Below, one piece after another: positions 4,540 to 29,250 of a DNA stretch of 64,000 nt. This DNA is from an uncultured Planctomycetia bacterium (lineage in GTDB: Bacteria; Planctomycetota; Phycisphaerae; Phycisphaerales; SM1A02): positions 1-64,000 of the forward strand of contig CALMPF010000019.1 of the NCBI GenBank assembly GCA_937871505.1. The letters run 5' to 3'. The position numbers and the translations under genes are program-made. A model generated the notes under the pieces. It was not told where the DNA came from and made no database searches. It saw only the letters and a list, made by a program, of their open reading frames with translations. The stretch's first letter is position 1. Every line of letters starts with the position of its first letter.

Positions 4540-4593
4540 GGATCAACCCTCCTCCTTCCGCGCCCGATCGCCCCCGAGTTCGGCCTTTGCCGC

Positions 4594-4599: not shown

Positions 4600-4608
4600 G
4601 CCGCCACC

Positions 4609-6345: not shown

Positions 6346-6352
6346 CCCACCC

Positions 6353-8784: not shown

Positions 8785-9461
8785 CCGTGCTGCGAGCCTC
8801 TCCGCGCCGCGGCCTCCGCCGCGGGTTCAGCCTCCTCGAGCTGATGATCGTCATCGGGATCATCGTGGTGCTCGCCGCGCTCGTCCTCGCCGTCGGCACC
8901 GGCCTGCTCTCGCAGTCCGACGCCCGGGAGACGAGGACGTCGCTGGAACTGCTTCAGGCCGCGATCGACGAGTGGGAGACCTCGACCGGCCGCAGCTTCA
9001 CCTACGGCACCGACGGCCAGCCCGTCGCCTCGGCGCGGTACGACTTCCAGCAGTCGACCGCGGACGGTCTCTTCATCGAGCAGATCCTCGGGGAGAACTT
9101 CCTCGGCGGCGCCGAGGGAAGCCGCACGATCCTCGCGCGGATCGACGGCAACCTGCTCCGCATCCGGCCCGGGTCCAACCCGCCGCGGACGCAGCTCGTC
9201 GATACCTGGGGCAATCCGATCGTGGTGGTCTTCCCCGGAAGGCGCTGGGTCGGGCCCGCCGACAACGCCTTGCCGAAGGACGAGGACGGCACGATTCGCA
9301 CCGCGCAGGAGAACCGCCTCGGCGCCTGCCGGAATCGGCGCATCCTCCTCGTCTCCGCCGGTCCGGACGGACTCCTCGGCGACCTGACCGCGAGCGTCGG
9401 AAGCGCCGCGAGGAAGCAGGCCGAGGACAACCTCTACTCCTACGAGCCGGTGAAGCCGTGA
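8781..9461 (+). CDS. GspG-like pseudopilin 2
   Basis: A 226-residue pseudopilin with leader MTVLRASPRRGLRRG and processing site G15|FSLLELMIVIGIIVVLAAL, Glu at +5. It carries the two GspG hallmarks, VDTWGNPIVVVFPG and ILLVSAGPDGLLGD, and is the closest in this operon to a standard major pseudopilin. ATG at 8781 overlaps the preceding TGA by four bases; the longer open frame upstream is an out-of-frame shadow of that gene. The presence of two GspG-like subunits in one operon is unusual. Confidence 0.88.
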   Translation: MTVLRASPRRGLRRGFSLLELMIVIGIIVVLAALVLAVGTGLLSQSDARETRTSLELLQAAIDEWETSTGRSFTYGTDGQPVASARYDFQQSTADGLFIEQILGENFLGGAEGSRTILARIDGNLLRIRPGSNPPRTQLVDTWGNPIVVVFPGRRWVGPADNALPKDEDGTIRTAQENRLGACRNRRILLVSAGPDGLLGDLTASVGSAARKQAEDNLYSYEPVKP

Positions 9462-10360
9462 AGCGCCGCAGACACCACAGGAACGTCTCGCCGTCGGCTC
9501 CACAGACGATGCGCGCCCCGCTGCGCGCTCGGATGACGGGGTTCTCCCTCGTCGAGCTGCTCGTCGTGATGGGCGTGCTGCTGCTCCTGGCCATCCTCGT
9601 GGTCGTCTCGGCGGGACGGATCGGCCGCGATGTGCGCCTCGCCACCGGCGTCAACGTCGTCACGGTCGCGCTGGGAGACGCGCGCAGCCACGCGATCCGA
9701 ACGAACAACGTCGTCCTCGTGACCTTCCGCGTCGCCCCGACGACGGAGGACCCCGCGCGCGGCCAGCTCGTCGAGGTCGTGGTCGCGGAGTGGACGCGCG
9801 ACACGATCGAGAACGAGCAGCAGCCCGGAACGCAGCTCGACCGCTTCCGCCCGGTGCAGAATCTCCCGCCGCGGCAGCTTCCGCGCGGCATCAAGGTCGC
9901 CGGGCCGTGGACGGACCGGGCGTCGGGCCCGAACCAGAACTTCGACTTCACCTGGCTGACCCAGCCGCAGTTCGCCGCGACGCTGGCGCAGTCGGAGTTC
10001 GACCGCAGCTTCGCGATCCTGTTCGGTCCGGACGGCGCCGTGGTCACGCGCAACCCCTTCGGGGCCTTCGCGGCGCGGCAGGTTCCCTTCGTCGACTATG
10101 ACGGCGATGGCAAGCAGAACGGCACCCTCCACCCCACGGCCGAGGATCCGTGGTGGACCTACTCGCTGAACTTCAGGGAGGTCAACCTGAACCCCGCGAC
10201 GTTCCTCGCCGTCTACGACGATGCCGACGCCCGTCAGCGGTACGACACGGCCAACTGGGCGGCGAACGAGGCTGCGCGGCGCAACGCGCTCTCGGAGTAC
10301 ATCGGCCTCTACGCCGATCGGATCAACTTCAACCTCTTCACGGGAGTCGTGCTGCGATGA
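9458..10360 (+). CDS. GspH-like minor pseudopilin
   Basis: A 300-residue prepilin-like protein. The processing site is TG28|FSLVELLVVMGVLLLLAIL with Glu at +5; after the helix comes LATGVNVVTVALGDARSHAIRTNN, the GspH/FimT pattern of a helix followed by a region rich in short strands. Near residue 213 there is a calcium-type loop (DYDGDGKQNG). Start chosen as GTG 9458, which overlaps the previous stop as GTGA like its neighbours; ATG 9509 is an alternative giving a shorter leader. Roughly double the usual GspH length. The GspH label rests on position and helix pattern, not on a full-length match. Confidence 0.8.
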   Translation: MKRRRHHRNVSPSAPQTMRAPLRARMTGFSLVELLVVMGVLLLLAILVVVSAGRIGRDVRLATGVNVVTVALGDARSHAIRTNNVVLVTFRVAPTTEDPARGQLVEVVVAEWTRDTIENEQQPGTQLDRFRPVQNLPPRQLPRGIKVAGPWTDRASGPNQNFDFTWLTQPQFAATLAQSEFDRSFAILFGPDGAVVTRNPFGAFAARQVPFVDYDGDGKQNGTLHPTAEDPWWTYSLNFREVNLNPATFLAVYDDADARQRYDTANWAANEAARRNALSEYIGLYADRINFNLFTGVVLR

Positions 10361-11541
10361 GACCGTCGTGCAGTGATATCTCCCGGCGTCCGTGCCTGCG
10401 GCGCTCGCGTTCGAGGCCCCGCGGCTTCCGCCGCGGCCTCTCGCTGGTCGAGCTGCTGCTTGCCGTCTTCATCCTCGCCATCGGCGTGATCTCGGTCGCG
10501 GCGATCTTTCCCGCGGCGATCTTCGTGCAGCGGCAGTCGACCGACGACACGCTCGGCCCGATCGTGGCGGACAACGCGATGGCGGTGCTGCGGCAGCGGC
10601 TCCGGCAGGAGGACTTCGGCCCGCTCGCGCCCTTCTATCCGCCGAACTCGGTCCCCGCGCTGCTGCCGTTCCAGGCGGTCGGCGCGCCGACGGCCTCGCT
10701 CGCGGGCGACTGGGGCTGGCGCCGGCCCGCATACGTCATCGCGCAGCCCTCGATGACCATCGACGGGATCGATGTCGCCAACGGCTCGATGGTGATATTC
10801 AGGCCGGCGCAGGGACCGACCAACGAGCTCACCTACTCCGAGCTTCCCTGGAACCCGCTCGCCACCGCGATCGTCACCGACCCGTCGAGCCCGCAGTTCC
10901 TTCAGCCCGCCTGGTACGGGGCGTTCCCGCCCACGATCGTCATCCGCACCGAGGATCGCATCTATCCGCTCGGGGCGGCGGCGCCGCAGTACCGCTGGGA
11001 GGTCCTCTTCCGGCGCTTCCAGGGCCGCGTGCTGGCGGCGATCTTCGTCTATCGCGTCACCCGCGCCGGCGGAGAGGGGGGCGGCTTCCGCGTCGGACCG
11101 GCGTCGGCGCCGCTCAGCACAGCGCTGCCTTCGTTCCCGATCGGCGTCGCGCTGGCCGATCTCGGCCTGCCCGTCTGGACCGCCGGCGGGGCCGACGGCA
11201 ACGTGCAGACGCTCGCGGACAACGCGGTGGTCCCCGGAATCGTCGCAGGCAACCCCTTCGCGATCGACAACCCGCTCCAGGCATGGCAGGCACCGGGACA
11301 GTGGCTGCTCGATCAGAACAACAACGTCCACCGCGTGCTGCGCGGACGCAAACTTCAGTCCGACGGGGCGCCCGTCCTCGCGCGGCCGCTGCCGCTCATT
11401 CCTGCGCTTCCGGCATTTCCGCCGGTGCCCAACGGCGACATCGATGCGCCCCGCGTCGTGCAGGCGATCTGGTATCTGCCGGCGCGCGATGCGGCAGGCA
11501 ACACGATCACTCCGGTCTTCGTCACGGTGAGGGAACTCTGA
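10357..11541 (+). CDS. GspI/PilV-like minor pseudopilin
   Basis: A 394-residue protein with an arginine-rich leader of 27 residues and processing site G27|LSLVELLLAVFILAIGVISV, Glu at +5. The FILAIGVISVAAIFPAAI stretch is typical of GspI/PilV proteins. The large C-terminal part, beta-rich by appearance, has no family I recognise, and the protein is about three times the length of a usual GspI. ATG at 10357 overlaps the previous TGA by four bases and its own TGA overlaps the next ATG by one. Expected to form part of the pseudopilus tip with the next two products. Confidence 0.82.
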   Translation: MRPSCSDISRRPCLRRSRSRPRGFRRGLSLVELLLAVFILAIGVISVAAIFPAAIFVQRQSTDDTLGPIVADNAMAVLRQRLRQEDFGPLAPFYPPNSVPALLPFQAVGAPTASLAGDWGWRRPAYVIAQPSMTIDGIDVANGSMVIFRPAQGPTNELTYSELPWNPLATAIVTDPSSPQFLQPAWYGAFPPTIVIRTEDRIYPLGAAAPQYRWEVLFRRFQGRVLAAIFVYRVTRAGGEGGGFRVGPASAPLSTALPSFPIGVALADLGLPVWTAGGADGNVQTLADNAVVPGIVAGNPFAIDNPLQAWQAPGQWLLDQNNNVHRVLRGRKLQSDGAPVLARPLPLIPALPAFPPVPNGDIDAPRVVQAIWYLPARDAAGNTITPVFVTVREL

Positions 11542-13022
11542 TGCGCCGACGCGGCTTCACGCTCACCGAGCTGCTCATCGCGGTCGTGATCCTCGTGGTC
11601 CTGATCGTGGCGGTGGCGAAGATCTTCTCGACCGTCAGCACCGTCACCTCGATCGGTCAGGCGAACGCGGCGTTCCTTCAGTCCGTCCCGGCGATCGAGC
11701 GGCAGGTCCGCGGCGATCTCGCGCGGCTTTCGGACGAGGGGTTCATGGTGATCCGCAACGTCCGCGTCCGCAACGACGTGAATCAGGCCGCGGACGCCTC
11801 GGCGCCGCTGCTCGACCGGACGCTCGCGCCGGGCGACTGGCTCCGCTGCGACCAGATCCTCTTCTTCAGCAACGGCATCGAGGACACGCGCACGTTCGTC
11901 GGCAGCGGCAACCTGATCGCCTCCGGAGGCGCCGCCTTCGCGCCGATCAGCCGCGTCATCATCAGCCATGGGTTCGAGGTCGAGACGCCGGCGCTGGTCG
12001 ATCCGGCGGGTTTCGCCGACTCGCGGCCGATGGTGCCGTGGGCCCGCGACATCCCCGGCCAGCCGCAGCTCGACCTCGTCACATGGCCGGCCGGGGCCAA
12101 CGCGGGGCGCGTGCCGGGGACGCAGCGCCCGGCGGCGGAGTGGCTTCTCGTCCGTCAGCGCGTCCTGCTCGCGGATGACGGCGGCTCCCCGCTCTACTTC
12201 AATCTCAGCCCTGCGGCGAACGCGCAGGGTCAGAACAGCACCGGCTCGATCTGGCTCGCGGCCTCCGGCGGAGACTGGGCCGCCGACGCGACGGACAACG
12301 CGCTGCGCTCGGGACGCGTCGACATCGCCGCGCTCTCGACGGCACAGATCAACCGGCGCGTGCTCTTCCGCGCCAACGGCACGTCGCGCCCATGGTTCGA
12401 GGCGGATGGACAGCGCGCCGCGATGCGCGACGCCCTCTATTGGCCACGGGCGTCGCGCACGGCACCGAGCATGGATCGCCGCGATCAGATGCTCGTCGCC
12501 TCGACGCTCGGCTGGGGCGTGGCGTCGATGTCCATCGACTGGACGTACGCCGATGGCGTCGGCCGCATGACCGATTCGGCGGGGAACCTGCTCCTGGCGA
12601 ACAGCGGAACGGTCACCCTCGCGGGCATGGTCGTGCGCCCCGGCTTCGAGCAGCCGTGGTTCGGCATCGCCGACAACGCCCGCAATGTGCGGCCGATTTC
12701 GGCGGGCGCCGGCGCCTGGCCGACGATCTGGGGCGACGTCTACCCGCCGATCCGTCCCAACGCGATCGAGCTGGCCTCGGCGACGCTCCAGGGCTATCCC
12801 GCCGACCGCGTCCAGGTCTACGAGGCGTACTTCGGCTTCAACCGGAGAGCTCCGCTGGGCAATGACAACGTCACGCAGGACGAGGATGGCTACACGCCGT
12901 ACCCGACGGCCCTGCGCTTCACCTTCACCGTCGTCGATCCGCGCGAGGACTCCGCGGTCCGTCGCCAGGTCCAGTTCGTCGTCGACCTGCCAGGACGGCG
13001 CGATCGGGCCCACGCCAACTGA
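11541..13022 (+). CDS. GspJ-like minor pseudopilin
   Basis: A 493-residue protein with a very short leader and site G5|FTLTELLIAVVILVVLIVAV, Glu at +5. The following segment VPAIERQVRGDLARLSDEGF matches the GspJ pattern in which a conserved helix ends with an RDL-like motif. The remainder is a large Asn/Ala-rich, strand-rich domain of unknown family; usual GspJ is about 200 residues. It is coupled to the preceding gene (TGATG overlap) and followed after 108 bp by the giant GspK-like gene, which fits the canonical G-H-I-J-K order. Confidence 0.82.
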   Translation: MRRRGFTLTELLIAVVILVVLIVAVAKIFSTVSTVTSIGQANAAFLQSVPAIERQVRGDLARLSDEGFMVIRNVRVRNDVNQAADASAPLLDRTLAPGDWLRCDQILFFSNGIEDTRTFVGSGNLIASGGAAFAPISRVIISHGFEVETPALVDPAGFADSRPMVPWARDIPGQPQLDLVTWPAGANAGRVPGTQRPAAEWLLVRQRVLLADDGGSPLYFNLSPAANAQGQNSTGSIWLAASGGDWAADATDNALRSGRVDIAALSTAQINRRVLFRANGTSRPWFEADGQRAAMRDALYWPRASRTAPSMDRRDQMLVASTLGWGVASMSIDWTYADGVGRMTDSAGNLLLANSGTVTLAGMVVRPGFEQPWFGIADNARNVRPISAGAGAWPTIWGDVYPPIRPNAIELASATLQGYPADRVQVYEAYFGFNRRAPLGNDNVTQDEDGYTPYPTALRFTFTVVDPREDSAVRRQVQFVVDLPGRRDRAHAN

Positions 13023-13130
13023 GTCGCGTCCGGTTGCGTCGAGGCCGGCTCGGGCGGACGCGGTCAGCCCGGCACCGCGCATCGGACGATCATCTCACCA
13101 CACACCACGCGAACGCAGGAACACCCCGCC

Positions 13131-16100
13131 ATGGCACCCCTGACGCACCGAGCGCACGCCTCCTCGCCCGCGCGGCTCCGCCGCACGGTGGGCCCCCGCG
13201 CCACCCGCGCGAGGGTCGGCGCCGAGGGATCGTCGCGCGGCCGGCGCGGAAACGCCCTCGTCCTCGTCGCCGCGATCCTCGTCCTGCTGGTCATCTCCGC
13301 CACCGCGCTGCTCTCCCGCGCCCGCGCCGGGCGCGCCGTCGCCGCGGCGGAGTCGCAGGTCTCCTCGCAGGACGACCGCGTCGCCGTCTTCGCGCATGAG
13401 ATCGCGCAGCAGGTCGCCGACGCGCTCTTCCCGGCGCCGGTCGATCCCTCCGATCCGGCGATCGGCACTCCGGGATTCCCCGATTTCGGCTTCGCCTCAA
13501 GCAACTGGCCGCGCCTCCCGCGCTCGCTCATTCTCGAGGCGTACGGCGACGAGGGCCGCTACACGGTCGATCCCCAGGATGGCGTGCACGCTTCGATCAA
13601 CGGCGGACAGCCCAACGGACTGCCCGACTTTTCCTACAACGTCGCGCCGTGGTCCGTGCGCCCGTGGACGAACTGGCCCGCCCTCCTCGGCCGGTACAAC
13701 CCCGGCATTCCCGGGGCGGTCAACGACGACATCCCCGGCGAGCCCGGGTTCAACGACGCCCGCTGGCTGCGCTGCACCGAGCCGAACCGCTTCGATCCCA
13801 ACGGCGTCGGCTTCGACACGACGTTCAGCCACTGGCAGCACCTGACCTACATCCCGACGGCCAACAACGGCTGGCGCGTGGTGGCGGACATCGCCGACAT
13901 CACGGCGCCGGGGAACCTGATCACCGACCTGCGCGTCCCGATCGAGCAGTGGCCGCTGGAGCTGAACTTCGATCCCGGTTCGCTCAGGGTCAGTCCGGAC
14001 GAGGCGGAGTCCGTCGGATTCTTCCTCAACAACTTCAGCCAGCGTCGCGACGCGTGGTTCTTCAACTACGACGGCGTCTACGACAATCCTGCCGCAGCTC
14101 TCAAGAACTTCTATCGACTGGCCGACCTTGGGGATCCCTCCGACGAGTTTCTTGCGAACACCCCTCGCAACATCGTCTCGAGGACCTTCGCCGACACCGA
14201 CGGCGACGGCTTCACCGACGCCTTCTGGATGCTCGCCCCCGCGAGCGCCGACGGCACGCTGCGGCATCTCGTCGCGGTCTCGGTCGTCGACAACTCGGCG
14301 ATGGTGAACGTCAACACCGCAACCCGCTTCGTGCGCCGCAACAGCGACGACCGGGTGATCGCCGGGGGCGTCATTCCCGCGACCGCGACCCGCGGACGCA
14401 CCGCGGCGGATGTCGCGCTGACGGGATGGTTCACCGCCGTTGCCAACAACGCCGTCGCGGGGAACCCGCCTTTCGGCACCGGCCTCCTCGACAACCCGCT
14501 CAATCACGGCGGAGTGGGCTTCCCCGTCGACCTCTTCGAGCCGGGTCTTTCGGTGGCGTTCAACCCCAACCAGTGGGGCAACTCCGCGGACGGGCGCTCG
14601 GTGATGGACGGCGTCGGCCTCCGCGGCAACGCCGCGCTGGATCCGCAGCAGTACGCGCCGGCGCTGGTCTCCTACCTCGACGACCGGCTCTCGCCGCTCG
14701 AGAGCGCCCCCGGCGCTCCCTTCCAGCCCTACCTGCTGCCGGCACGCGACCGCGAGCTCTACTTCCGAAGCGGCGCGATGCGCCGCCTCGGTCCCGCGTT
14801 CGGCCTCACGCCCTTCGGCGTCCCCGAGGAGATCGAGCTGCGCTCGTTCCACGGGCAGAACATCGCCTCGGCGCTCTCGCGGTTCGAGCGGTCGGTCAGT
14901 CAGTCGCCGGTGCCGGCGATTCCCTCCGCGACGCCCTATCTCCTCCGCTCGATCATCGGAATCCGCGAGGAGACGAGCGAGTATCTCGACCAGCTCACCA
15001 ATCCCCAGCTCGTCTTCGACACCCGGCGCAAGGTGACGATGTTCAACGGCGGCTGGAACGACGTGATGCCGACGTGGCTCTGGCCGAGCGCCCTGCCGCC
15101 GAACATCACCGGCGAGAATCTCGTGGAGCGGACGCAGAACCTCGCGGGACAGCTCACGGCGCGGTGGATGCGCCCGGTCAACAGCGTCACGCCCGCGCAG
15201 GATCCGCTGTCGCTCAATCCCGCCACCGCGGTCACGGTGCATGACTTCGTGCGCTGGTCGCAGCTCATCCGCAAGATCGACCTGCGCGCGATGGTGCCGG
15301 ACCCGCGCTTCTTCCAGGATCTCGGAGCGCCGTTCCAGGAGAACTACGACCTCCAGGCCAACGAGCACCGCGAGCTCTTCCGCGATCACCTGCTCCGCGT
15401 CCTCTACAAGGTCTTCTTCTCCGAGGGCGACAGCGTCGGCTACTTCGGCTCCTCGCAGGATGACCGCAAGCGCACGCGCTCGCTGATCGCCAGCTACGCG
15501 GCCAACGTCGAGGCGTGGATGGATGGTCCGAGGCGGATCATCTCGCCGGGCCCCGGCGCCCCGATCGCGGTCGATCGGCCGCTGCGCTACGTCGACGCGC
15601 GGCAGTACCAGGATCCGTCGAACCCGGGTCGGCGCTTCATCGGCCAGGAGCGGCAGCCCTTCATCATGGAGGCGTTCGTCGCCCACGTCTACGCGAAGGC
15701 GAGCGTTCCGGCCACCTACCCGGGGCCGCTCTTCCCGAACGACGACCGTCGCGTGCGCATTCCGCTCGGCCAGCCCGATGAGGGCGAGCACTTCATCGAC
15801 CAGTCGAGCAAGGCATACACCGTCGCGGTGGTGCAGCTCGGGAACCCCTACAACACTCCGATCGTGATCGCGCAGCGGCGCGTCGGCGACGCCGGCAACG
15901 GCACGTCGGACTTCCGGGTGCGGCTCTTCAATCAGGGCTACACGTTCGGCTTCAGCTCGCTCGAGAACCCCCTCGACAACAACCTCAGGACGCTCAAGGT
16001 CGACACCGACGGCGACGGCGTGGCGGACTGGGAGCAGCTGCTTCTCCTGCCGACGACCGAGGACGAGCCGCGGTCGGTCATCGTCTACGCGATGCCCGAG

Positions 16101-18485
16101 ACGGTCGAGGAGCCGTCGGGAAGCGCGACTCCGGACATCGACGCCGCCTTCGGCGCCCGCTTCCGGGACTTCCTCGACATCGGTCTCGACACCGAGCCCG
16201 CGACCGTGGCGGGCGTCGCGGTGCCGCCCGCGTTCCTCGGGCGCGAGCTCTTCGAGGATCCGCGCACGCCGATGTGGGACACGCTCCGCTTCCGCGCCAA
16301 CGGGCCCTGGAAGACCGAGTACTCGGGCCCCAACGACTCCGTGCCCTACGGCAACGCGGGCGACTCCTCCGTCGAGCTCCTGCGCAACGTCGGCGGTGCG
16401 TGGGTCGTCGTCGATCGACTCGACTTCGTCGACGGAGCATGCGACGGCGGAGTTCCGGCGTGGGACTTCCGCGACAAGGTGAACCGGCTTCGAGGTCCGG
16501 CCTCCGACCCGAAGTACCAGCCGCCGCCCCAGGCCTACGCGTGGTCGCCGAACCAGCCGCAGATCAACTACTACAACGGCATCCGGATCGGCTCGCGGGA
16601 CTACTTCGTCACGTGGGCGCAGTCCGCTCGGGGCTGGGGACGCGACGTCGACGGAGACGGCGTGATCTCCAACGTCGAGAAGGCGCCGCGCTACGCGGTC
16701 GCCAAGCGCCCGCCTGCGGACATCGTCAAGACGCAGCAGTTCGACCGGTTCATCGGCCAGAGCTCGGAGCAGGTCATCGGCGCCGCGTTCAGGAAGGACC
16801 AGGATCCCGATCTGGATCCGTGGTTCCTCAGCGACGGAGGAGCGCGGCGCAAGCCCGCGTACTTCATCACGCGGACGGTCTCGGGTCCCGGCGGGGTCGT
16901 CTATCCGACGCAGGGGTTCCCCGTCAGGGCTCAGGACTTCACAGGCCTCTCCCCGGGTCAGTTCGTCCAGGGGACCAACTGGATCGTGCAGGACGGCGTC
17001 GAGATCGCCAGCAAGACCGACGGGTTCACGGCGCCGCTGGATTTCCAGTACCAGATGCTCCATCCCGATCTGGGCTTCACGCAGGTCGGCGAGCTGGCCC
17101 TCGTGCCGCTCTGGGGCACGGTGATCGATGGCAGCGGCAACACCGTCTGGACGCTGCCGGAGATCCTCGCGGGCTGCGCATCCGAGTACCCGGTCGAGGA
17201 GGGGATCTACTTCAACCGGCTGCGCCTCTACGACGACATCGATCCGAACGATCTCCGTCTCGCCCCGATCGTCGGCCGCGACGTCGCGGCGGAGCCGACG
17301 GGGACGCCGCAGCCGCAGCTTCTCGCGGCGATCCGCAACAACCCCGCGCAGCACCGCCCATTCCTTCCTGCGGGCGCCGGGCTCTTCGACGCCTTCGTCT
17401 GCGACGGTCCGGGTTCGAGGCCGCTGCGCGGCTACGTGTGGAACCCCGGGCTCGGTCAGTTCATGCTCACGATCGTCGACGGCGGCACGAACTTCGACGC
17501 CAACGTCACCGCCCTCAGCCCGCGCGCCGCAGGCGGCGAGCAGGGCCTCCCGGAGATCCTGGGCGTCAACGCCACGGTGCGCGGACCGAACGGTTCGGCG
17601 CCGTGGGGCGAGCTTCCCTTTGATCCCTCGATCGTCCGCTCGCCGGTCGCCGTCCCGGGCTTGATCAACGTGAACACGGCGCCGGTCGAGGTTCTCCGTG
17701 CGATGCCGCACATGAGCTGGATGGTCCACAGCGAGAGGCGTCCGCAGAACGCCCTCGACCTCGCGCGGACGCGGGTGCGCATCCCCGAGGCGATCGTCCA
17801 GTACCGCGACCGCAATCTCGAGCCGCCCACCGGCGCCAAGCCGCGCTATGCCGACCGCGGAACGACCAACGGATTCATCCCCGGTCTGCGCGGCGCCCGC
17901 GGTTTCGAGTCGCTCGGCGAGCTGCTCCTGCTCCGGCGCTCGTCTCCCAGCGCCCCGCTCTCGCAGCCGGCGGCGCCGGGCCTCGACGCCGGCCAGCAGG
18001 CTCGCGTCGCGGCGGCGCATCGGATCGACTTCGCGCGGCTCAACCCCTGGGAGTTCCCGCTGCGCGACTGGCCCGATGTCGCGCCCGACGGCGCGATGAA
18101 GCTCGGGGCGGACGCCCGCATCTCGGTCGACGCGCTGCCGATGCAGACGGGTCCGAACATCGATCCCATCGGCGGTCTCTACGACGGCTCGATTGCAGCC
18201 GGCGTGCTCGGGCGCCCCGGCAGCGACGGAGTCTCCGGCGATGCGAAGGAGGCGAACCTGCTCTTCTCCGGCATCTCCAACATCGCCACCACGCGGAGCG
18301 ATGTCTTCACGGTGACGATGCGGGTGCGCACCGTCCGCCAGGATCCCGTCACCGGCCGCTGGAACGGCACCGACCGAGAGTCGATCGTCGACGAGGCGCG
18401 CTACGTGATGCTCGTCGATCGCACATCGGTGCGCCGGCCCGACCAGCCGCCGAGAGTGCTCTACCTCGAGAAGCTCCCGCCCTGA
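13131..18485 (+). CDS. Giant GspK-like pseudopilus tip protein
   Basis: A 1784-residue protein, about five times a normal GspK. After a 40-residue basic leader comes G40|NALVLVAAILVLLVISATAL, which lacks Glu at +5 exactly as GspK does, then SQDDRVAVFAHEIAQQVADA. Near residue 1510 the motif GLINVNTAPVEVLRAMP is the GspK hallmark (helix-hairpin-type INVNTAP..VL). Three calcium-type loops are visible: DTDGDGFTDAF (about 356), DTDGDGVADWEQ (about 957) and DVDGDGVISNVE (about 1171). The regions between are Pro/Asn/Gly-rich and unassigned. It is last in the operon and followed by a strong intrinsic terminator. Likely role: cap of the pseudopilus, with added domains that may contact substrate or the cell surface. 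Confidence 0.85.
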   Translation: MAPLTHRAHASSPARLRRTVGPRATRARVGAEGSSRGRRGNALVLVAAILVLLVISATALLSRARAGRAVAAAESQVSSQDDRVAVFAHEIAQQVADALFPAPVDPSDPAIGTPGFPDFGFASSNWPRLPRSLILEAYGDEGRYTVDPQDGVHASINGGQPNGLPDFSYNVAPWSVRPWTNWPALLGRYNPGIPGAVNDDIPGEPGFNDARWLRCTEPNRFDPNGVGFDTTFSHWQHLTYIPTANNGWRVVADIADITAPGNLITDLRVPIEQWPLELNFDPGSLRVSPDEAESVGFFLNNFSQRRDAWFFNYDGVYDNPAAALKNFYRLADLGDPSDEFLANTPRNIVSRTFADTDGDGFTDAFWMLAPASADGTLRHLVAVSVVDNSAMVNVNTATRFVRRNSDDRVIAGGVIPATATRGRTAADVALTGWFTAVANNAVAGNPPFGTGLLDNPLNHGGVGFPVDLFEPGLSVAFNPNQWGNSADGRSVMDGVGLRGNAALDPQQYAPALVSYLDDRLSPLESAPGAPFQPYLLPARDRELYFRSGAMRRLGPAFGLTPFGVPEEIELRSFHGQNIASALSRFERSVSQSPVPAIPSATPYLLRSIIGIREETSEYLDQLTNPQLVFDTRRKVTMFNGGWNDVMPTWLWPSALPPNITGENLVERTQNLAGQLTARWMRPVNSVTPAQDPLSLNPATAVTVHDFVRWSQLIRKIDLRAMVPDPRFFQDLGAPFQENYDLQANEHRELFRDHLLRVLYKVFFSEGDSVGYFGSSQDDRKRTRSLIASYAANVEAWMDGPRRIISPGPGAPIAVDRPLRYVDARQYQDPSNPGRRFIGQERQPFIMEAFVAHVYAKASVPATYPGPLFPNDDRRVRIPLGQPDEGEHFIDQSSKAYTVAVVQLGNPYNTPIVIAQRRVGDAGNGTSDFRVRLFNQGYTFGFSSLENPLDNNLRTLKVDTDGDGVADWEQLLLLPTTEDEPRSVIVYAMPETVEEPSGSATPDIDAAFGARFRDFLDIGLDTEPATVAGVAVPPAFLGRELFEDPRTPMWDTLRFRANGPWKTEYSGPNDSVPYGNAGDSSVELLRNVGGAWVVVDRLDFVDGACDGGVPAWDFRDKVNRLRGPASDPKYQPPPQAYAWSPNQPQINYYNGIRIGSRDYFVTWAQSARGWGRDVDGDGVISNVEKAPRYAVAKRPPADIVKTQQFDRFIGQSSEQVIGAAFRKDQDPDLDPWFLSDGGARRKPAYFITRTVSGPGGVVYPTQGFPVRAQDFTGLSPGQFVQGTNWIVQDGVEIASKTDGFTAPLDFQYQMLHPDLGFTQVGELALVPLWGTVIDGSGNTVWTLPEILAGCASEYPVEEGIYFNRLRLYDDIDPNDLRLAPIVGRDVAAEPTGTPQPQLLAAIRNNPAQHRPFLPAGAGLFDAFVCDGPGSRPLRGYVWNPGLGQFMLTIVDGGTNFDANVTALSPRAAGGEQGLPEILGVNATVRGPNGSAPWGELPFDPSIVRSPVAVPGLINVNTAPVEVLRAMPHMSWMVHSERRPQNALDLARTRVRIPEAIVQYRDRNLEPPTGAKPRYADRGTTNGFIPGLRGARGFESLGELLLLRRSSPSAPLSQPAAPGLDAGQQARVAAAHRIDFARLNPWEFPLRDWPDVAPDGAMKLGADARISVDALPMQTGPNIDPIGGLYDGSIAAGVLGRPGSDGVSGDAKEANLLFSGISNIATTRSDVFTVTMRVRTVRQDPVTGRWNGTDRESIVDEARYVMLVDRTSVRRPDQPPRVLYLEKLPP

Positions 18486-18884: not shown

Positions 18885-21800
18885 ATGATGCAGCCGACTG
18901 TCTTCGTGCGCCGCCTTCAGATCGCCGCGATCGTCCTCGCCGCGGTCATGCTTCCCGTCGGGCGCTCATCGGCGTTCCCCGCAGGCTTCGCGCGAAGCGG
19001 CGATGCGGTCCCCGACGCTGCGCCTGCCGCCGCGTCCTCCGACCTCGTCGATCCCGTGATCGCGGGGGCCGCGACGGCCGCGCTCGATGCTCCTGCCGTC
19101 GTCGCCGAGGCTCCCGCCGTCGGCGCACCCGCGGGCGCGGCGCAGAAGGTCGCGCAGTCGACGAAGGCAGCCCCCGCCGCCGGCGCCGGACAGCCCGCCC
19201 AGGGCGGCACCGACCTGCCGAAGTCGGCCGCGGCGGCCGACACGCCCTCCGAGCGCGACTCCGCCGGCCGCGCCGCGGATTCAGCCTCGGCGCGCCGCGG
19301 CGCCCGTGGAGGGCGCCCGCCGCTGCGGCTTCCGGAGCGTCCGGAGTCGCGTCCCGAGGTCCGGCTCGACCCGGGGCTCGCGCGGCTCGTCGACGAGATT
19401 GCCGGTGGCGCGGAGCCCTCCGGCGTGCCGGGCGCGCCCGCTCAGCCGGACGGCGATCTCGACGACGGCGCTCCCTTCGCAGGCGTGCGCTTGAGCGAGA
19501 TTCGCGTCGGGGGAATCGCCGCCGGGTGCGGCTTCTCGCAGTCGGTCTACCTGGAGGTCGAGGGGCCGCCCGGGACGATCCTCGACGGGCTGACCTACGT
19601 GATCATCGCGCGATCCGGCCCCGGTCTCGATGGGACGATCGAGTCCGCCATCGGACTTCGCGGCGCCATCACCGCCGATGCCGCGCGCGCGGGGCACTTT
19701 CTTCTCGTCGACTCAGTCTTCTGCCCGAACATCGGCTTCCAGCCCGATCAGGTCTCGCAGGCGACCTTCGGCCGGGCGCCGACGAAGTACACCACGCACC
19801 TGCTCGTGAGCGGCTTCAGCGGATTCCAGGGGCAGGACCTCGACTTCACCAACGACTGCACGCTCGAGGTGACCCCGTGGGCGGCGGTGATCGACGCGCT
19901 CTCGATCCAGGCCGGAGTTCCCGGCTGCGTCTATGCGGCCGCGGGACTTGGCCCGAGCTTCGGAACTCCGGATCCGATTCCGTATCACGCCTTCCGATGC
20001 CGTCCCTTCGGAATCTGGCGGGCCGGGCTGGTGAACTTCGGGCTCCCGTTCGGGGGCGGTCTCGACACGCCAGGCTTCCCGAACGTGACATGCGCCGATG
20101 CGAGCTGCCCCGGCGACGGCGACTGCTGCATCGCGCACGGCGGCTCGGGCTGCGACGACGAGGCGTGCTGCGAGACCGTCTGTTCGCTGCTGCCGTATTG
20201 CTGCCTGGTCGGATGGGACGCCCAGTGCGTTTCGGTCGCCGACGGCTTCTGCTTCGACTGCGGCGGGTCCGGGTTCCAGCCGCTCTGTCCCGACGATCCC
20301 ACGCTCGGGCCGTGCTACGCGCCGCACGACGGACCGCTCTGCGAGGACCTCTTCTGCGCCGCCCTCGTCTGCGTGGAGCTCCCGGGATGCTGCGAGACGC
20401 AGTGGGACGAAGGGTGCGTCGATGCCGCCTTCACGCGGTGCATCTGCGGCAACCCCTTCAGCTTCCCCTGCGAGGTGATCAGCGGATCGCCCGGGTGCAG
20501 CGACTGCGACTGCTGCCGCACGGTCTGCCTGATCTCGGCCAACTGCTGCTCCGTCGGCTGGGACGCCTTCTGCGTCGCCCTCGCCAGCAACCTCTGCACC
20601 AAGTGCGGCGATGCGGGAGCGGGGGAGTGCTGCCTCTTCGACGCGACTCCGGCCTGCTCGGACGCCGCCTGCTGCGAAGCGGTCTGCGCGGTCGACCCGG
20701 CGTGCTGCCTCGTCACCTGGGACTTCGGCTGCGCCGTGCAGGCGGCATCGCTCTGCGCGCGCTGCTCGGCGTTCGGCAATCCGGCGTGCGGCTCCTGCTA
20801 CAACACCTTCGGCGGACCCGGCTGCGAGCCCAAGAAGGGCTGCGGCGACGTGCAGTGCTCGATCCGGACCTGCGCCATCGACGCCTACTGCTGCTTCGTC
20901 GAGTGGGATGACTTCTGCGTCGAGGTCGCCCTGATCGTCTGCGTGGCCAATCAGACCTGCGACGACATCGACCCGGGAGTCTCCTGCGCGGTGCCGCATC
21001 CCGAGCCGGGGTGCAGCCAGCTTGGCTGCTGCTCGGTGGTCTGCGCCGTCGAGCCACTCTGCTGCACGACGGCGTGGGACGAGATGTGCGTCGAGTTCGC
21101 CTTCATCTTCTGCTTCGCGGTCGATCCCGGGATCTGCCAGACCGGCTGCGGCAATCCCTGCGCGCAGGGGTGCTATTCCACGAGCGCTCAGCCCGGCTGC
21201 GACTTCGGACCCTGCTGCTTCACGGTCTGCGCCGTGGCGCCGAGCTGCTGCATCGCCGGGTGGGACGCGTCGTGCACCCAGATCGCCCTGCTCTCCTGCT
21301 GCGGCCTCCCGGCGGCGGGAAGCTGCTTCGCCGTCAGGGGCTCCCCCTTCTGCGACGACCCATCCTGCTGCTCGAGCGTCTGCCTCCTCGACGCGTTCTG
21401 CTGCGATGAGTCCTGGGATGAGTTCTGCGTCGAGCTCGCCTTCGAGCAGTGCCCTGAGTACTGCTTCGCCCCCGGCGACGGGCGCGGCTGCTTCGTGCCC
21501 TCCGACGCTCCGGGCTGCGGCAAGCGGCCCCCGGCGCTCGGGAGCGCGCCGATCTGCACCAGCGTCTGCACCGTCGACCCGCTCTGCTGCCGCGATTCGT
21601 GGGACGCCGCGTGCGTCCAGACGGCGCTGGCGCTCTACGGAACGCTGGCCGCGACCGGGTGCAGCGAGATGCCCTGTTCGACCCCGCACGACGAGGGCGG
21701 CTGCGCGATCCTCTCCTGCTGCACGGCGGTCTGCTCGGTCGTCCCGACCTGCTGCTCCGTCTCCTGGGACATCGGATGCGTCGGGCTCGCGTCGATCCTC

Positions 21801-23525
21801 TGCGTCGATTCCGTTCTCTTCGCGGTCCCGCCGGTCTGCCCCTCGGACGGCGACTGCTTCACGGCGCACGCCAACGCAGGGTGTCAGGATCCGACCTGCT
21901 GCACCGCGGTCTGCTTCGTCGATCCCTCCTGCTGCGACGGATCGTGGGACTCCGCCTGCGTCTCGCTCGCCGGGGAAGTCTGCGGCGACTTCCTGCCGCC
22001 CTTCTGCATCCCCAACGACCGCTCCTGCTTTGCGCCGCATGGCGAGCCCTACTGCCGGGACGCGCTCTGCTCCGATCTGGTCTGCGTCTTCGACCCCTTC
22101 TGCTGCGAGGAGGCATGGGACTTCGCCTGCGTCCAGGAGGCGCTGCTCTTCTGCACGCGCGGCTGCGGCTCGGAATTCTCCGGCCCCTGCGTCTTCCCCG
22201 GGACCGGACCGGGCTGCGCGGATTTCGGCTGCTGCGAGCGGGTCTGCGCCTTCGATGACTTCTGCTGCTCGGCGATCTGGGACGCGCTCTGCGTGCAGCT
22301 CGCCATCGGGCTCTGCTCGACAGGTCCCTGCTTCGACGCCCACGTCGGCAAGGGATGCGATCTCGCCGAGGTCGCGCTTCAGGTCTGCCTGCTCGATCCG
22401 GAGTGCTGCGAGCTCAACTGGGACTCCACCTGCGCCAACAGCGCCCAGAAGCTCTTCCCCTTCCCCTCGCAGGGACAGCCCGGCGGCTGCGGCGATCCCG
22501 CCCTGGGGAGCTGCTTCGTCCCCCATCCGACCCGCGGCTGCGACAATGCCACCTGCTGCCAGACGGTCTGCGCCGCGGACAGCTTCTGCTGCGAGTCGTT
22601 CTGGGATGCGACGTGCGTGACCCGCGCCAAGGACCTCTGCGCCGAGCTCTGGGAGGAGACCTATTTCGACTGCGACGAGTTCTGCGCCGGACCGTGCTTC
22701 AGGCCGAAGCTCACCCCCAACTGCGCCGATGAGGAGTGCTGCGATCTGGTCTGCGCCGACGACACCTTCTGCTGCACCGTCGAGTGGGACGTCCTCTGCG
22801 CCGAGTCCGCGCAGTTCCTCTGCCTGGAGTGCGGGGATCCCGAGACGGGAAGCTGCTGCTTCCCGCACCTGGGGCCGTACTGCAACGACGCGACCTGCTG
22901 CGATGCCGTCTGCGCGATCGACTCGTTCTGCTGCTCGCTCGGGGGGGTCTGGGACGGCTTCTGCGTCGCCATCGCGGCGCAGCAGTGCCCGACGCTCTGC
23001 GCCGACCTTCTCGCCTGCGGCGCTCCCTTCTCGGGCGACTGCTGCTCGCCGGGCGGCGCGCCGTACTGCAACGACGCCGCCTGCTGCCTGGCCGTCTGCA
23101 ACATCGACTCCTTCTGCTGCGAGCAGTCGTGGGACGACGCCTGCGCGAACCAGGCCCAGATCACCTGCGCGGCCCTCTGCGCGCTGCCCTCCTGCGGCGA
23201 TCCGTTCGCCGGGAGCTGCTTCGTCGTCCACCCCGGACCGACGTGCGACGACGTCGAGTGCTGCGAGTTCGTCTGCACGTTCTTCGATTCGACGTGCTGC
23301 ACCGAGTCATGGGACGTCCAGTGCGTGAAGTACGCCGTCAGCTTCTGCATCCCCGGCGTCTGCGGCTTCCCGACCTCGGGCGACTGCTTCGTCGCCAACG
23401 GAACCCCGGGCTGCGACGATCTCGACTGCTGCAACTTCATCTGCACCGTCTACGACTTCTTCTGCTGCCAGGTCGCTTGGGACCAGGCCTGCGCCGACGA
23501 GGCGTCGATCTTCTGCGCTCCGTAG
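18885..23525 (+). CDS. Large secreted protein with about 20 tandem cysteine-rich CC-VC-CC-WD modules
   Basis: A 1546-residue exported protein. Residues 1-25 form a signal peptide (RRLQIAAIVLAAVMLPVGRSSA). An Ala/Pro-rich stretch follows to about 180, then (about 195-400) a beta-rich domain (VRLSEIRVGG, VYLEVEGPPGTILDGLTYVI) resembling the lamin-tail-like domains common in planctomycete exported proteins. From about 406 to the end there are 20 modules of about 57 residues with the pattern [SP]CF.PH...GC.D..CC..VC..D.FCC...WD..C...A...C; examples are CCETVCSLLPYCC and CCQTVCAADSFCC. Each module has about nine to eleven cysteines, so disulphide bonding or metal binding is likely. No dockerin or transmembrane end is seen. 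Start: first ATG of the pair at 18885, immediately before the signal peptide. Function unknown; probably a cell-surface or matrix structural protein. Confidence 0.85.
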   Translation: MMQPTVFVRRLQIAAIVLAAVMLPVGRSSAFPAGFARSGDAVPDAAPAAASSDLVDPVIAGAATAALDAPAVVAEAPAVGAPAGAAQKVAQSTKAAPAAGAGQPAQGGTDLPKSAAAADTPSERDSAGRAADSASARRGARGGRPPLRLPERPESRPEVRLDPGLARLVDEIAGGAEPSGVPGAPAQPDGDLDDGAPFAGVRLSEIRVGGIAAGCGFSQSVYLEVEGPPGTILDGLTYVIIARSGPGLDGTIESAIGLRGAITADAARAGHFLLVDSVFCPNIGFQPDQVSQATFGRAPTKYTTHLLVSGFSGFQGQDLDFTNDCTLEVTPWAAVIDALSIQAGVPGCVYAAAGLGPSFGTPDPIPYHAFRCRPFGIWRAGLVNFGLPFGGGLDTPGFPNVTCADASCPGDGDCCIAHGGSGCDDEACCETVCSLLPYCCLVGWDAQCVSVADGFCFDCGGSGFQPLCPDDPTLGPCYAPHDGPLCEDLFCAALVCVELPGCCETQWDEGCVDAAFTRCICGNPFSFPCEVISGSPGCSDCDCCRTVCLISANCCSVGWDAFCVALASNLCTKCGDAGAGECCLFDATPACSDAACCEAVCAVDPACCLVTWDFGCAVQAASLCARCSAFGNPACGSCYNTFGGPGCEPKKGCGDVQCSIRTCAIDAYCCFVEWDDFCVEVALIVCVANQTCDDIDPGVSCAVPHPEPGCSQLGCCSVVCAVEPLCCTTAWDEMCVEFAFIFCFAVDPGICQTGCGNPCAQGCYSTSAQPGCDFGPCCFTVCAVAPSCCIAGWDASCTQIALLSCCGLPAAGSCFAVRGSPFCDDPSCCSSVCLLDAFCCDESWDEFCVELAFEQCPEYCFAPGDGRGCFVPSDAPGCGKRPPALGSAPICTSVCTVDPLCCRDSWDAACVQTALALYGTLAATGCSEMPCSTPHDEGGCAILSCCTAVCSVVPTCCSVSWDIGCVGLASILCVDSVLFAVPPVCPSDGDCFTAHANAGCQDPTCCTAVCFVDPSCCDGSWDSACVSLAGEVCGDFLPPFCIPNDRSCFAPHGEPYCRDALCSDLVCVFDPFCCEEAWDFACVQEALLFCTRGCGSEFSGPCVFPGTGPGCADFGCCERVCAFDDFCCSAIWDALCVQLAIGLCSTGPCFDAHVGKGCDLAEVALQVCLLDPECCELNWDSTCANSAQKLFPFPSQGQPGGCGDPALGSCFVPHPTRGCDNATCCQTVCAADSFCCESFWDATCVTRAKDLCAELWEETYFDCDEFCAGPCFRPKLTPNCADEECCDLVCADDTFCCTVEWDVLCAESAQFLCLECGDPETGSCCFPHLGPYCNDATCCDAVCAIDSFCCSLGGVWDGFCVAIAAQQCPTLCADLLACGAPFSGDCCSPGGAPYCNDAACCLAVCNIDSFCCEQSWDDACANQAQITCAALCALPSCGDPFAGSCFVVHPGPTCDDVECCEFVCTFFDSTCCTESWDVQCVKYAVSFCIPGVCGFPTSGDCFVANGTPGCDDLDCCNFICTVYDFFCCQVAWDQACADEASIFCAP

Positions 23526-24137: not shown

Positions 24138-25535
24138 TCACCGCAGACAGGGGCCCCAGCTTCCGAGGAGGAAGCCGAGGTCGCTTCCGTTGACGATCCC
24201 GTTGCAGTCGAAGTCCGCGGCGGGCGCAGGGAAGCCGATGAACCCGAGCAGGATGCCGAAGTCGGCGCCATCCACGACGCCGTCGCCGTTGAGGTCGCCG
24301 GGGCAGCAGATGGTGCGGGCGAGGGCGGCGCAGGCGGCGTCCCACGCCGAGGCGCAGCAGAAGGGATCGATCGCGCAAACCGCGCCGCAGCAGGACTCGT
24401 CGTCGCATCCGGGGCCGGCGTGGGCCGCGGTGCAGCAGCCGTCGCCGGGACAGGGCTCCGGATCGGGCTCGCAGCCGCAGGGCTCCGGCAGCGCCTGGGC
24501 GAACTGGACGCAGGAGCCGTCCCAGCTCATGGTGCAGCAGAAGAGGTCGATCGCGCAGACCGCTTGACAGCAGGCGGCGTCGCTGCACCCGGGCGTGCCG
24601 GAAGCCTGACAGCAGGGGCCCGTTCCTTCGGTGCCGCAGGGCAGGCACGTGGCGCGGGCCTGCGTGACGCACGCTTCGTCCCAGGCGATCTCGCAGCAGG
24701 ATGCGTCGATGGCGCAGACCGCCTCGCAGCAGGAGAGCTCGTCGCAGCCGGGCAGGCCGTGCGGCTCGAAGCAGGAGCCGCTCTCGGCACAGGGAGGGGG
24801 TTCGCTGCCGACGATCGCGAGCGACCAGCTCGCGAAGCTGCCGGCGTCACCTGCCGCCCAGTCGCCGATGATGAGCCGCCAGGTCCCGAGGGCGTTGATG
24901 CCGGCGAACTCGGGGACCGCGAGGATCTGGGCCCCCGTCCCCGCCGCGCTCGGGAAATAGGTGTCCCCGGGGATCACGAAGTTGGTTCCGCCCTGCGCCG
25001 CCGTGGCCCAGAGATCGGCGGCGGCGCCGTCATTCCAGGCGTAGGTTCCGTCCAGGTTGCTGCTGTCGCCGAAGGTGTTCGGCGGCGGGTTCGGCGGCAG
25101 TCCCACCCGGAAGACGAGCATCGCGCTGCGCCCGCTCGGAACATGGAGGAGCTCGACGGAGAGATCGCCGACCCAGGTGTGCTCGAGGCCGACGATGGTG
25201 AGCGTGAAGTCCTCGACCGTCAGCGCATCGGTCACGGTCAGCTCGCTCGCCACGAAGGCGGGCGTCCCTTCGAGCTCCGGAGCGTCAGGGATCACCGCCC
25301 CGGGTCCGAAGTAGGTTCCGGCACCCAGCGGAAGGGCGATGAAGAGCGCTGCGGCGGCGGGAAGGCGCGCGAGGCCGAGGGCGCGCCCGGCATTGACGCG
25401 ACGCGATCGCGCGGGCGGCGCGATGCACCGTGGCGCCCCGACGGCGGTCGTGGGGCCGTGGGCGCTCGGCGCGAGGGCGCTTCGTTCGGTTGCCAGATCG
25501 GAAACGCGGGCAGGGGGGATCTTCGCGGAGAACAT
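24138..25535 (-). CDS. Secreted protein: P-domain, three cysteine-rich modules, dockerin-like C-terminus
   Basis: A 465-residue exported protein with a long basic N-region and a hydrophobic signal (LARLPAAAALFIALPLGAG, residues 55-73). Residues about 90-255 form a proprotein-convertase P-domain (LTIVGLEHTWVGDLSVELLH, and WRLIIGDWAAGDAGSFASWS). Three modules follow of the same kind as in the neighbouring 1546-residue protein (CCEAVCAIDASCC, CCQAVCAIDLFCC, CCGAVCAIDPFCC, each ending WD..C). The last 52 residues are a dockerin-like pair of calcium loops (GDLNGDGVVDGADFGILLG, DFDCNGIVNGSDLGFLLGSW). Start: ATG 25535, preceded four bases upstream by GAGGAA; the longer frame upstream lacks support. 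It faces the large repeat gene tail to tail. Likely surface-located; binding partner unknown. Confidence 0.85.
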   Translation of the reverse strand: MFSAKIPPARVSDLATERSALAPSAHGPTTAVGAPRCIAPPARSRRVNAGRALGLARLPAAAALFIALPLGAGTYFGPGAVIPDAPELEGTPAFVASELTVTDALTVEDFTLTIVGLEHTWVGDLSVELLHVPSGRSAMLVFRVGLPPNPPPNTFGDSSNLDGTYAWNDGAAADLWATAAQGGTNFVIPGDTYFPSAAGTGAQILAVPEFAGINALGTWRLIIGDWAAGDAGSFASWSLAIVGSEPPPCAESGSCFEPHGLPGCDELSCCEAVCAIDASCCEIAWDEACVTQARATCLPCGTEGTGPCCQASGTPGCSDAACCQAVCAIDLFCCTMSWDGSCVQFAQALPEPCGCEPDPEPCPGDGCCTAAHAGPGCDDESCCGAVCAIDPFCCASAWDAACAALARTICCPGDLNGDGVVDGADFGILLGFIGFPAPAADFDCNGIVNGSDLGFLLGSWGPCLR

Positions 25536-25695: not shown

Positions 25696-26454
25696 TCAGG
25701 CCGGATTGAGACCGCCGAAGCGTCGGCTGCGCGCCGCGAAGCTCCGCAGCGCCGCGTGGTAGTCGTCCACGCCGAAGTCCGGCCAGAGTACGTCGGTCAC
25801 GTGCAGCTCCGCGTAGCTGATCTGCCAGAGCAGATAGTTCGAGAGCCGCATCTCGCCCGCCGTGCGGATGAGCAGGTCGGGATCCGGCAGTCCTGCGGTA
25901 TCGAGGTGGGCGTCGATCATCGCCTCGTCGATCGCCTCCGGACCGATCTCGCCCGATGCGACGCGACGGGCGATCCGCCGCATCGCGTCGACGATCTCCG
26001 CTCTTCCGCCGTAGTTGAGCGCCAGGACCAGCGTGGTTCCTGCGCAGGCTCGAGTCGCCTCGGCCGTTCGACGCAGCTCGCCCTGAACCGCGGGGGGGAG
26101 GCCCTCCAGCCTGCCGATGGTCCGGAAGCGGATGCCGTTGGCGATCAGCTCGTCGCGCTCGGCCACGAGGTGCTCCTGGCAGAGTGCCATCAGCCCGTCG
26201 ATCTCGTCGGCGGGCCGCTTCCAGTTCTCCGACGAAAAGCTGTACAGGGTCAGGGCCTCGATGCCGAGCTTCGCGGACTCGGTCACGACGTCGCGGACTG
26301 TCCGCGCCCCGGCGCGGTGTCCGAGGAGCCGCGGAAGGCCGCGCCGCGCCGCCCAGCGCCCGTTGCCGTCCATGATGATCGCCACGTGCCTCGGGAGGCG
26401 CTCCCGCTCCAGGCCCGAGGGCGCCTCGACAGGCTTGGCGATCGTCTCTGGCAT
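25696..26454 (-). CDS. uppS: Undecaprenyl diphosphate synthase
   Basis: A 252-residue cis-prenyltransferase that condenses isopentenyl diphosphate units onto farnesyl diphosphate to make the C55 lipid carrier for cell-wall and polysaccharide precursors. The conserved pyrophosphate-binding motif HVAIIMDGNGRWA (about residues 23-35), SFSSENWKRP, and the C-terminal LLIRTAGEMRLSNYLLWQ with ELHVTDVLWPDF are all intact. Normal length. A TAGACT box ends 9 nt before its ATG, with no Shine-Dalgarno sequence, suggesting its own leaderless promoter. The presence of uppS fits the accepted existence of peptidoglycan in planctomycetes. Confidence 0.97.
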   Translation of the reverse strand: MPETIAKPVEAPSGLERERLPRHVAIIMDGNGRWAARRGLPRLLGHRAGARTVRDVVTESAKLGIEALTLYSFSSENWKRPADEIDGLMALCQEHLVAERDELIANGIRFRTIGRLEGLPPAVQGELRRTAEATRACAGTTLVLALNYGGRAEIVDAMRRIARRVASGEIGPEAIDEAMIDAHLDTAGLPDPDLLIRTAGEMRLSNYLLWQISYAELHVTDVLWPDFGVDDYHAALRSFAARSRRFGGLNPA

Positions 26455-26630: not shown

Positions 26631-27992
<1,362 letters not shown>

Positions 27993-27993
27993 C

Positions 27994-27999
27994 TATTCT
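27994..27999 (+). promoter_or_regulatory. -10-like box TATTCT before hemW
   Basis: TATTCT ends 9 nt before the GTG at 28009. On the other strand the same bases read AAGAAT, a weaker -10-like box 11 nt before the purA ATG, so the divergent genes may share one AT-rich control point in a 25-bp gap. Confidence 0.45.
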
Positions 28000-28008
28000 T
28001 ACCGCTCC

Positions 28009-29250
28009 GTGACCACGTCGGCGCTGCCTCTCTTCGAACCGTCCGCGGCGCCCGGCCCCCGGGGAGCCCTTCCTGCCGACCGGGCGCTTCCGGCGGACGT
28101 GATCGCAGCCGACGGCGTCGACGGAGCGTACATCCACGTTCCGTTCTGCCGTCACAAGTGCCACTACTGCGACTTCTACTCCTTCGTCGATCGCGACGAC
28201 CGGCAGGACGCCTTCGCCTCCCGGCTGATCGCGGAGATCGAGTCGGTCGCCCCGCGGTGGCGCCGCCCGCTGGAGACGATCTTCGTCGGCGGCGGCACTC
28301 CGACCCTGCTCCCCCCGCGCATCTGGCAGTCGCTGCTGCCGGTGCTCGCGCGGCGGCTCCCGCTGGCTCCGGGCGGCGAGTTCACCGTGGAGGCCAATCC
28401 CGAGACGGTCTCGGCCGAGCTCGCGGAGGTCCTGGCGGACGGGGGCGTGACGCGGGTGAGCCTGGGGGCGCAGTCGTTCGACCGCCGCCATCTCGCCACG
28501 CTCGAGCGACGGCACGATCCGGCATCGGTCGAGCGCAGCGTCGACGTGCTGCGCCGCGCCGGGATTCGCGAAGTCAACCTCGACCTGATCTTCGGAATCC
28601 CGGGCCAGAGGGTGGAGGAGTGGCTTCGCGACCTCGACCTGGCCCTCGCGCTCCGGCCTGACCATGTCAGCGCCTACGGCCTGACCTACGAGCCTGGGAC
28701 GGCGATGACGATGCGCCTGAAGCTCGGCGAGTTCACGCCCGCCGACGATGAGATCGAGGCCGCGATGTTCGAGGCGACCGCCGACCGCCTTGCCGAGGCG
28801 GGATTCGAGCGCTACGAGATCAGCAACTTCGCCCGGCGCGACGCGCTCGGCGCGCGGCGCTGCCGCCACAACATGCTCTACTGGACCAATCGCGACTGGT
28901 GGGCCTTCGGTCCCTCCGCGAGCGGGCACGTCCGCGGCGTCCGGTGGAAGAACGTTCCGCGGCTCGGGGACTGGCTCGCGTGTTCGCCGTGGTCGCCCGT
29001 GATCGACGTGGAGCGGCTCGACGCACGCGGCGTCAGCGGCGAGCGGATCATGCTCGGCCTGCGGCTCTCGGAGGGGATCGAGGCGATCGAGCTCGAAGGT
29101 CTTCTTGCGGTCGGCAAAGACGCGCCGGAGCGGCGTGCCGCCTTCGCGCGCCAGGTCGCGGCCGGCCTCTTCGAACGCCGGGGAACCCGCTGGGCGCTCT
29201 CGCGCCGCGGCCTGCTGCTCGCCAACGAGGTGCTCGCCGAACTGATCTGA
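28009..29250 (+). CDS. hemW: Radical SAM heme chaperone HemW-like protein
   Basis: A 413-residue radical SAM protein of the HemW (formerly HemN-like coproporphyrinogen oxidase) family. IHVPFCRHKCHYCDF holds the CxxxCxxC cluster ligands (about residues 46-54); GGGTPTLLPP, FTVEANPETV, RVSLGAQSFD and IFGIPGQ follow. The C-terminal HNMLYWTNRDWWAFGPSASGH is characteristic of HemW. True coproporphyrinogen dehydrogenase (HemN) has a longer N-terminus with a further cysteine, absent here, so heme delivery to respiratory proteins is the better guess, in keeping with the cytochrome operon in this window. GTG 28009 is chosen; GTG 28099 is an alternative closer to the domain start. The last codons run into a pentanucleotide repeat. 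Confidence 0.92.
   Translation: MTTSALPLFEPSAAPGPRGALPADRALPADVIAADGVDGAYIHVPFCRHKCHYCDFYSFVDRDDRQDAFASRLIAEIESVAPRWRRPLETIFVGGGTPTLLPPRIWQSLLPVLARRLPLAPGGEFTVEANPETVSAELAEVLADGGVTRVSLGAQSFDRRHLATLERRHDPASVERSVDVLRRAGIREVNLDLIFGIPGQRVEEWLRDLDLALALRPDHVSAYGLTYEPGTAMTMRLKLGEFTPADDEIEAAMFEATADRLAEAGFERYEISNFARRDALGARRCRHNMLYWTNRDWWAFGPSASGHVRGVRWKNVPRLGDWLACSPWSPVIDVERLDARGVSGERIMLGLRLSEGIEAIELEGLLAVGKDAPERRAAFARQVAAGLFERRGTRWALSRRGLLLANEVLAELI

Follow-up and report, generated by a model that had tools for sequence, protein, structure and literature searches.

The window analysed here (a stretch of 64,000 nucleotides) carries on its forward strand an ORF at positions 18885-23525, with an ATG at 18885 and the stop at 23525, encoding a protein of 1546 aa with 210 Cys. 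In this array protein, a signal peptide and an Ala/Pro-rich segment precede a single globular domain (about 200 residues), which is followed by 20 modules of about 52 residues each. The features of the locus are:

3541..18485, forward strand: type II secretion/type IV pilus-like operon (Pfam)
3541-6345, forward strand: T2SSE (Pfam)
6308-7645, forward strand: T2SSF (Pfam)
7645-13022, forward strand: pseudopilin-like ORFs
13131-18485, forward strand: large ORF, 1784 aa, N-terminus pseudopilin-like by eye, no Pfam match
18885..18974, forward strand: signal peptide of the array protein, predicted by eye
18975..19478, forward strand: Ala/Pro/Gly-rich low-complexity stretch after the signal peptide (sequence)
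19479..20100, forward strand: N-terminal globular domain of the array protein, lamin-tail-like by eye only
20106..23519, forward strand: array of 20 Cys-rich modules (profile search, alignment, shuffles)
20106-20255, 20295-20444, 20445-20600, 20604-20759, 20775-20945, forward strand: array modules 1-5
20982-21116, 21147-21299, 21300-21452, 21483-21632, 21666-21806, forward strand: array modules 6-10
21837-21983, 22008-22157, 22164-22316, 22317-22451, 22488-22643, forward strand: array modules 11-15
22671-22826, 22830-22988, 23016-23171, 23193-23351, 23361-23519, forward strand: array modules 16-20
24138..25535, reverse strand: secreted neighbour protein with P-domain, three modules and C-terminal dockerin-like repeats (translation, Pfam)
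24642-24788, 24492-24638, 24303-24452, reverse strand: modules of the neighbour protein
25696..26454, reverse strand: uppS, undecaprenyl diphosphate synthase (Pfam PF01255, E 3e-80), conserved array-gene neighbour
26631..27983, reverse strand: purA-like, adenylosuccinate synthetase (named from sequence), conserved array-gene neighbour
27649..29250, forward strand: hemW/hemN-like ORF with an internal true start (named from sequence), conserved array-gene neighbour

The large antisense and overlapping ORFs at the array locus are GC-rich mechanical frames. The secretion operon that the first-pass annotation had placed beside the array gene is real, since Pfam detects T2SSE, T2SSF and N-methyl pseudopilins upstream of it. 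The same annotation had described an exported protein, in agreement with the N-terminus, which by eye has the features of a signal peptide (MMQPTVFVRRLQIAAIVLAAVMLPVGRSSA), namely a basic start, a hydrophobic core and an end of AxA type. It had also named a lamin-tail-like domain; this assignment (PF00932) found no backing, as Pfam gives no hit to the N-terminal globular domain at E<=5 and no PDB profile matches it; a remote relation of fold is possible. Copies of this domain (INEIR...DTPG) that are 34-42% identical to that of the array protein are found in another module protein of the same genome (L111, three copies aligned) and in a second array protein (L080).

The array protein contains exactly 20 WDxxC anchors spaced by 47-63 residues, and the array part (1141 aa) includes 204 Cys. 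The twenty tandem modules and roughly 200 Cys announced from the first reading are thus confirmed. The core module pattern is matched 18 times in the array and never in 2000 composition-preserving shuffles. The nucleotide identity among array modules is 57-71% (13 compared), and the modules are therefore diverged copies and no recent tandem-repeat artefact. The shuffles and this divergence together rule out chance or a tandem-repeat artefact as the source of the array.

The consensus sequence of the module is CGxPxxGxCxxPHxxPGCxDxxCCxxVCAxDxFCCxxxWDxxCVxxAxxxC. From the alignment of 813 unique modules, we observe that ten Cys columns, W39, D40 and A47 are near-invariant and that variable loops are located between the invariant Cys. 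Exactly ten Cys are present in 357 of the 552 full-length modules, and an eleventh Cys occurs in about a quarter. The first-pass annotation recognised no named domain in the module and proposed a profile search as well as AlphaFold predictions of one to three modules. In the searches, the array protein has no match in Pfam or NCBIfam at E<=1 and none in PHROGs at E<=0.1, 103 single modules gave only scattered chance-level matches in Pfam (best E 0.13), and the PDB contains no sequence match to the module above chance; the module is thus placed in no characterised family. No description of it was found in the open-licence papers searched.

AlphaFold2, run on an alignment of 103 modules, models the single module with a pLDDT of 96.4 and helices at 21-30, 33-36 and 41-51, and three tandem modules with a pLDDT of 93.3 and a pTM of 0.61, a value that leaves a rod shape conjectural. 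The module is therefore confidently predicted as an all-helical fold of three helices. Foldseek detected no match in the PDB at E<=10 for the one- or the three-module model, a search that is weak for 52-residue chains and whose weakness the three-module model only partly offsets. Fold matches in BFVD to proteins of Virus NIOZ-UU157 (E 2.2 and 3.4) are insignificant and were dismissed as evidence.

The consistent pairing of the Cys comes from a separate analysis of Cys loss in 832 modules, which took C28 and W39 as anchors and was repeated after removal of modules more than 60% alike. The conserved Cys form an even set and are lost in fixed pairs, four of the five pairs being significant after redundancy removal: C1/C24 (p=4e-21), C23/C51 (p=9e-9), C28/C35 (p=5e-7) and C9/C18 (p=7e-5). 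The double losses C1/C24, C9/C18, C23/C51 and C28/C35 occur in 17, 8, 7 and 3 dissimilar module clusters, respectively. C34 and C43 are kept in nearly all modules; they are assigned as the fifth pair by elimination only. The paired loss is imperfect, C9 being often lost while C18 is kept, and C23 and C24 co-vary because they are adjacent.

These sequence data support five disulphides rather than a metal cluster. The first reading had proposed either a disulphide-rich structure or a high-capacity metal binder; the former gains from the paired losses and the confident fold, whereas the latter is not supported, because the Cys are lost pairwise. Binding or storage of zinc, copper or iron by Cys ligands would suit 210 Cys per protein and a strong net negative charge. 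However, specific pairwise loss is not what is expected of a shared cluster, the module also occurs singly beside proteases and lectins, and Cys of this kind are usually oxidised in exported proteins. We regard a metal-storage function as very improbable. A point against the disulphide reading is that, in this 93%-complete genome, Pfam gave no match to DsbB or VKOR; that about 1100 module Cys are encoded and yet neither protein was found raises the separate question of how the disulphides are made.

Close pairs of array proteins differ at 0-2 of 156-183 Cys columns versus 8-36% of the other residues. Their dN/dS ratio lies between 0.02 and 0.31 in 13 of the 14 close pairs (those where it was computable). 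The array proteins are under purifying selection.

The module is not confined to the array protein. Three more copies lie in the next gene, and about 110 are found genome-wide, spread over 41 ORFs of which some are fragments at contig ends; the array protein has the highest number (20). The first-pass annotation had missed both that the module recurs as a mobile, lineage-specific unit in dozens of secreted proteins and that the array gene occupies a conserved place in the genome. Concerning the planctomycetes, the module is present in 93 of 101 genomes of this family. Among the 294 genomes of a phylum sample it occurs only in the two that belong to the family, and an order sample of 251 genomes adds two genomes of the sister family. 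A GTDB-wide contig scan gave matches almost only in planctomycete records, many of them from lake or sea according to the isolate name. Records labelled Bacteroidia, Kuenenia and Singulisphaera contain 29-34 modules and an array each, so these labels may be wrong. For the Bacteroidia record (L106, genome G394), with 29 module matches including an array frame of 1181 aa, the label is probably wrong. By record labels, the host group of the module is Phycisphaerales-type. No module was detected in the phage and plasmid collections; one IMG/VR contig (L144) contains a relative with 41% identity. In two loci (L128 and L115, contigs C24 and C28), several modules have identical search scores, which reflects either recent duplication or assembly redundancy.

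Outside the planctomycetes, a contig of Wenzhouxiangella (L058:2036-2416) encodes a protein of 127 aa in which a signal peptide is followed by one ten-Cys module and then by an IPTL-CTERM sorting domain scoring above its cut-off: a natural minimal protein made of one module and a surface-sorting signal. Its gene sits between proteobacterial-looking genes; these neighbours and the IPTL-CTERM domain make contamination less likely. It is the sole module match in its own genome and among the 299 genomes of its phylum sample, and a single transfer is therefore assumed. This gammaproteobacterium has probably acquired the module horizontally.

In this genome, the module is combined with subtilase, LamG, C-type lectin, FG-GAP, P-domain and galactose-binding-like domains, all of extracellular types. 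These partners bear on a second explanation, in which the module would bind a ligand (glycans, peptidoglycan or organic aggregates) and the array would act as a multivalent particle adhesin and not as a passive stalk. LamG, C-type lectin and FG-GAP domains among the partners, the variable loops between invariant Cys and the sufficiency of a single module in the Wenzhouxiangella protein are all consistent with it, and the group includes colonisers of lake particles (PMC6461901). On the other hand, the most conserved residues besides the Cys (W39, D40 and A47) lie in or next to helix 3 and look structural, and the module matches no carbohydrate-binding family. We consider ligand binding somewhat unlikely.

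Dockerin-like repeats were recognised by motif in 33 of the 41 module ORFs of this genome. The array protein has none, and array proteins (12-20 modules) form a separate class devoid of C-terminal dockerin repeats. In the neighbour protein at 24138-25535, P_proprotein scores 29.6 bits (over its cut-off) and Dockerin_1 15.3 bits (under its cut-off). Many module proteins resemble the GC-type dockerin-anchored proteins (NF041540) in ending in such repeats, and NF041540 scores over its cut-off in L072 and below it in L118 and L123; however, this model covers the dockerin part and not the Cys module, and the array protein lacks it. In two loci at contig ends (L113 and L138), which may represent one split gene, long Cys-containing repeats of the DSDGDGVPDCIDGCPDDPKK type lie beside modules.

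A cohesin-dockerin protease complex, the 'planctosome', has been proposed for Nemodlikiaceae (Andrei et al. 2019, PMC6461901), in a paper whose main text does not contain the word 'cysteine'. The module could be a scaffold or docking element of this complex. The domain sets overlap (P-domain, thrombospondin-3, dockerin, proteases), module proteins are found in ZH-13MAY13-plancto70 (L072, L093), a Nemodlikiaceae genome treated in that paper, and the present genome has 121 dockerin-like matches. However, Pfam cohesin (PF00963) is absent from this genome, where a diverged cohesin may exist, and was found in only 14 of the 101 family genomes, compared with 93 for the module; the array protein, moreover, has no dockerin-like repeat. 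Membership in a planctosome is thus improbable. The dockerins of this genome may bind something other than cohesin.

The position of the array gene was compared in 30 other array loci, defined as loci with 12 or more modules, and in 50 module loci without array. In 26 of the 30 the gene adjoins uppS, purA or hemW, and in the remaining four a contig end truncates the locus; the 50 loci without array include no case beside any of these genes. Relatives of the large ORF at 13131-18485 are encoded near the array gene in four loci (L046, L049, L080 and L100). FG-GAP-like proteins are encoded between uppS and the array gene in L033, L040, L043, L044 (2126-4192) and L046 (2126-4153), those of L044 and L046 having one module each. 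Compared with four references, 28 other arrays keep the module order (z 4-17), whereas the array of the window follows it only weakly (z -0.9 to 2.8) and hence may have been rebuilt or replaced. The window protein is therefore the positional counterpart of the other array proteins, with a strongly diverged or rebuilt array.

The neighbourhood of uppS, a wall-lipid gene, raises the possibility that the array protein works in the cell wall, as a functional equivalent of the Cys-rich YTV-domain proteins, which are reported from cell-wall preparations and from Planctomycetales only (PMC8567305). The YTV proteins (Rhodopirellula, Gemmataceae) are likewise Cys-rich, exported, planctomycete and limited to one lineage, with a proposed surface structure, and among Cys-rich secreted modules the present one is the abundant type in a group that does not belong to Planctomycetales. 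They differ from it by lineage, the module belonging to a Phycisphaerales-type family and not to Planctomycetales, and by description, the module being a compact helical unit with ten Cys that recurs in many shuffled architectures. However, the proximity of uppS may be incidental, and most module proteins resemble enzymes or adhesins and not wall layers. A wall-protein role of this kind is unlikely.

We consider it probable that the module is a secreted, self-folding, five-disulphide unit serving this family as a standard structural or display element of its extracellular proteins, and that the array forms a surface stalk or matrix fibre. The module would fold autonomously after secretion into an all-helical unit of about 52 residues, held by C1-C24, C9-C18, C23-C51 and C28-C35 (from paired loss) and by C34-C43 (from elimination), and would have been shuffled and amplified within one Phycisphaerales-type planctomycete family. 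The window protein would be the array-type member at the conserved uppS/purA/hemW site. It would be exported by Sec, possibly crossing the outer membrane through the neighbouring type II system, and fold oxidatively into an elongated, rod-like fibre at the cell surface, resistant to chemicals and proteases. In proteins with one to eight modules, the module may space or attach proteases, lectins and adhesins.

Animal extracellular modules such as EGF, TSP1 and LNR are small, disulphide-stapled, shuffled and arranged in tandem. By analogy, the bacterial module may be compared with them in all these traits and in its presumed extracellular location, but it has no sequence or PDB-fold match to them and is bacterial, lineage-specific and predicted as all-helical. 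The wider reading, that of a new domain family with its own five-disulphide helical fold, an origin and spread inside one planctomycete family that led to about 110 copies in this genome, EGF-like shuffling throughout that family, one gammaproteobacterial transfer and an array acting as surface fibre at a conserved locus, is put forward tentatively, at slightly less than even expectation.

If true, these proposals would provide a name, a predicted fold and a testable disulphide map for a unit that is highly repeated, yet unannotated, in secreted proteins of a widespread group of uncultured planctomycetes. They would represent, in bacteria, the shuffling of a disulphide module on a scale usually linked to animals. 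The array would also be a candidate surface material for a group whose envelope composition remains debated.
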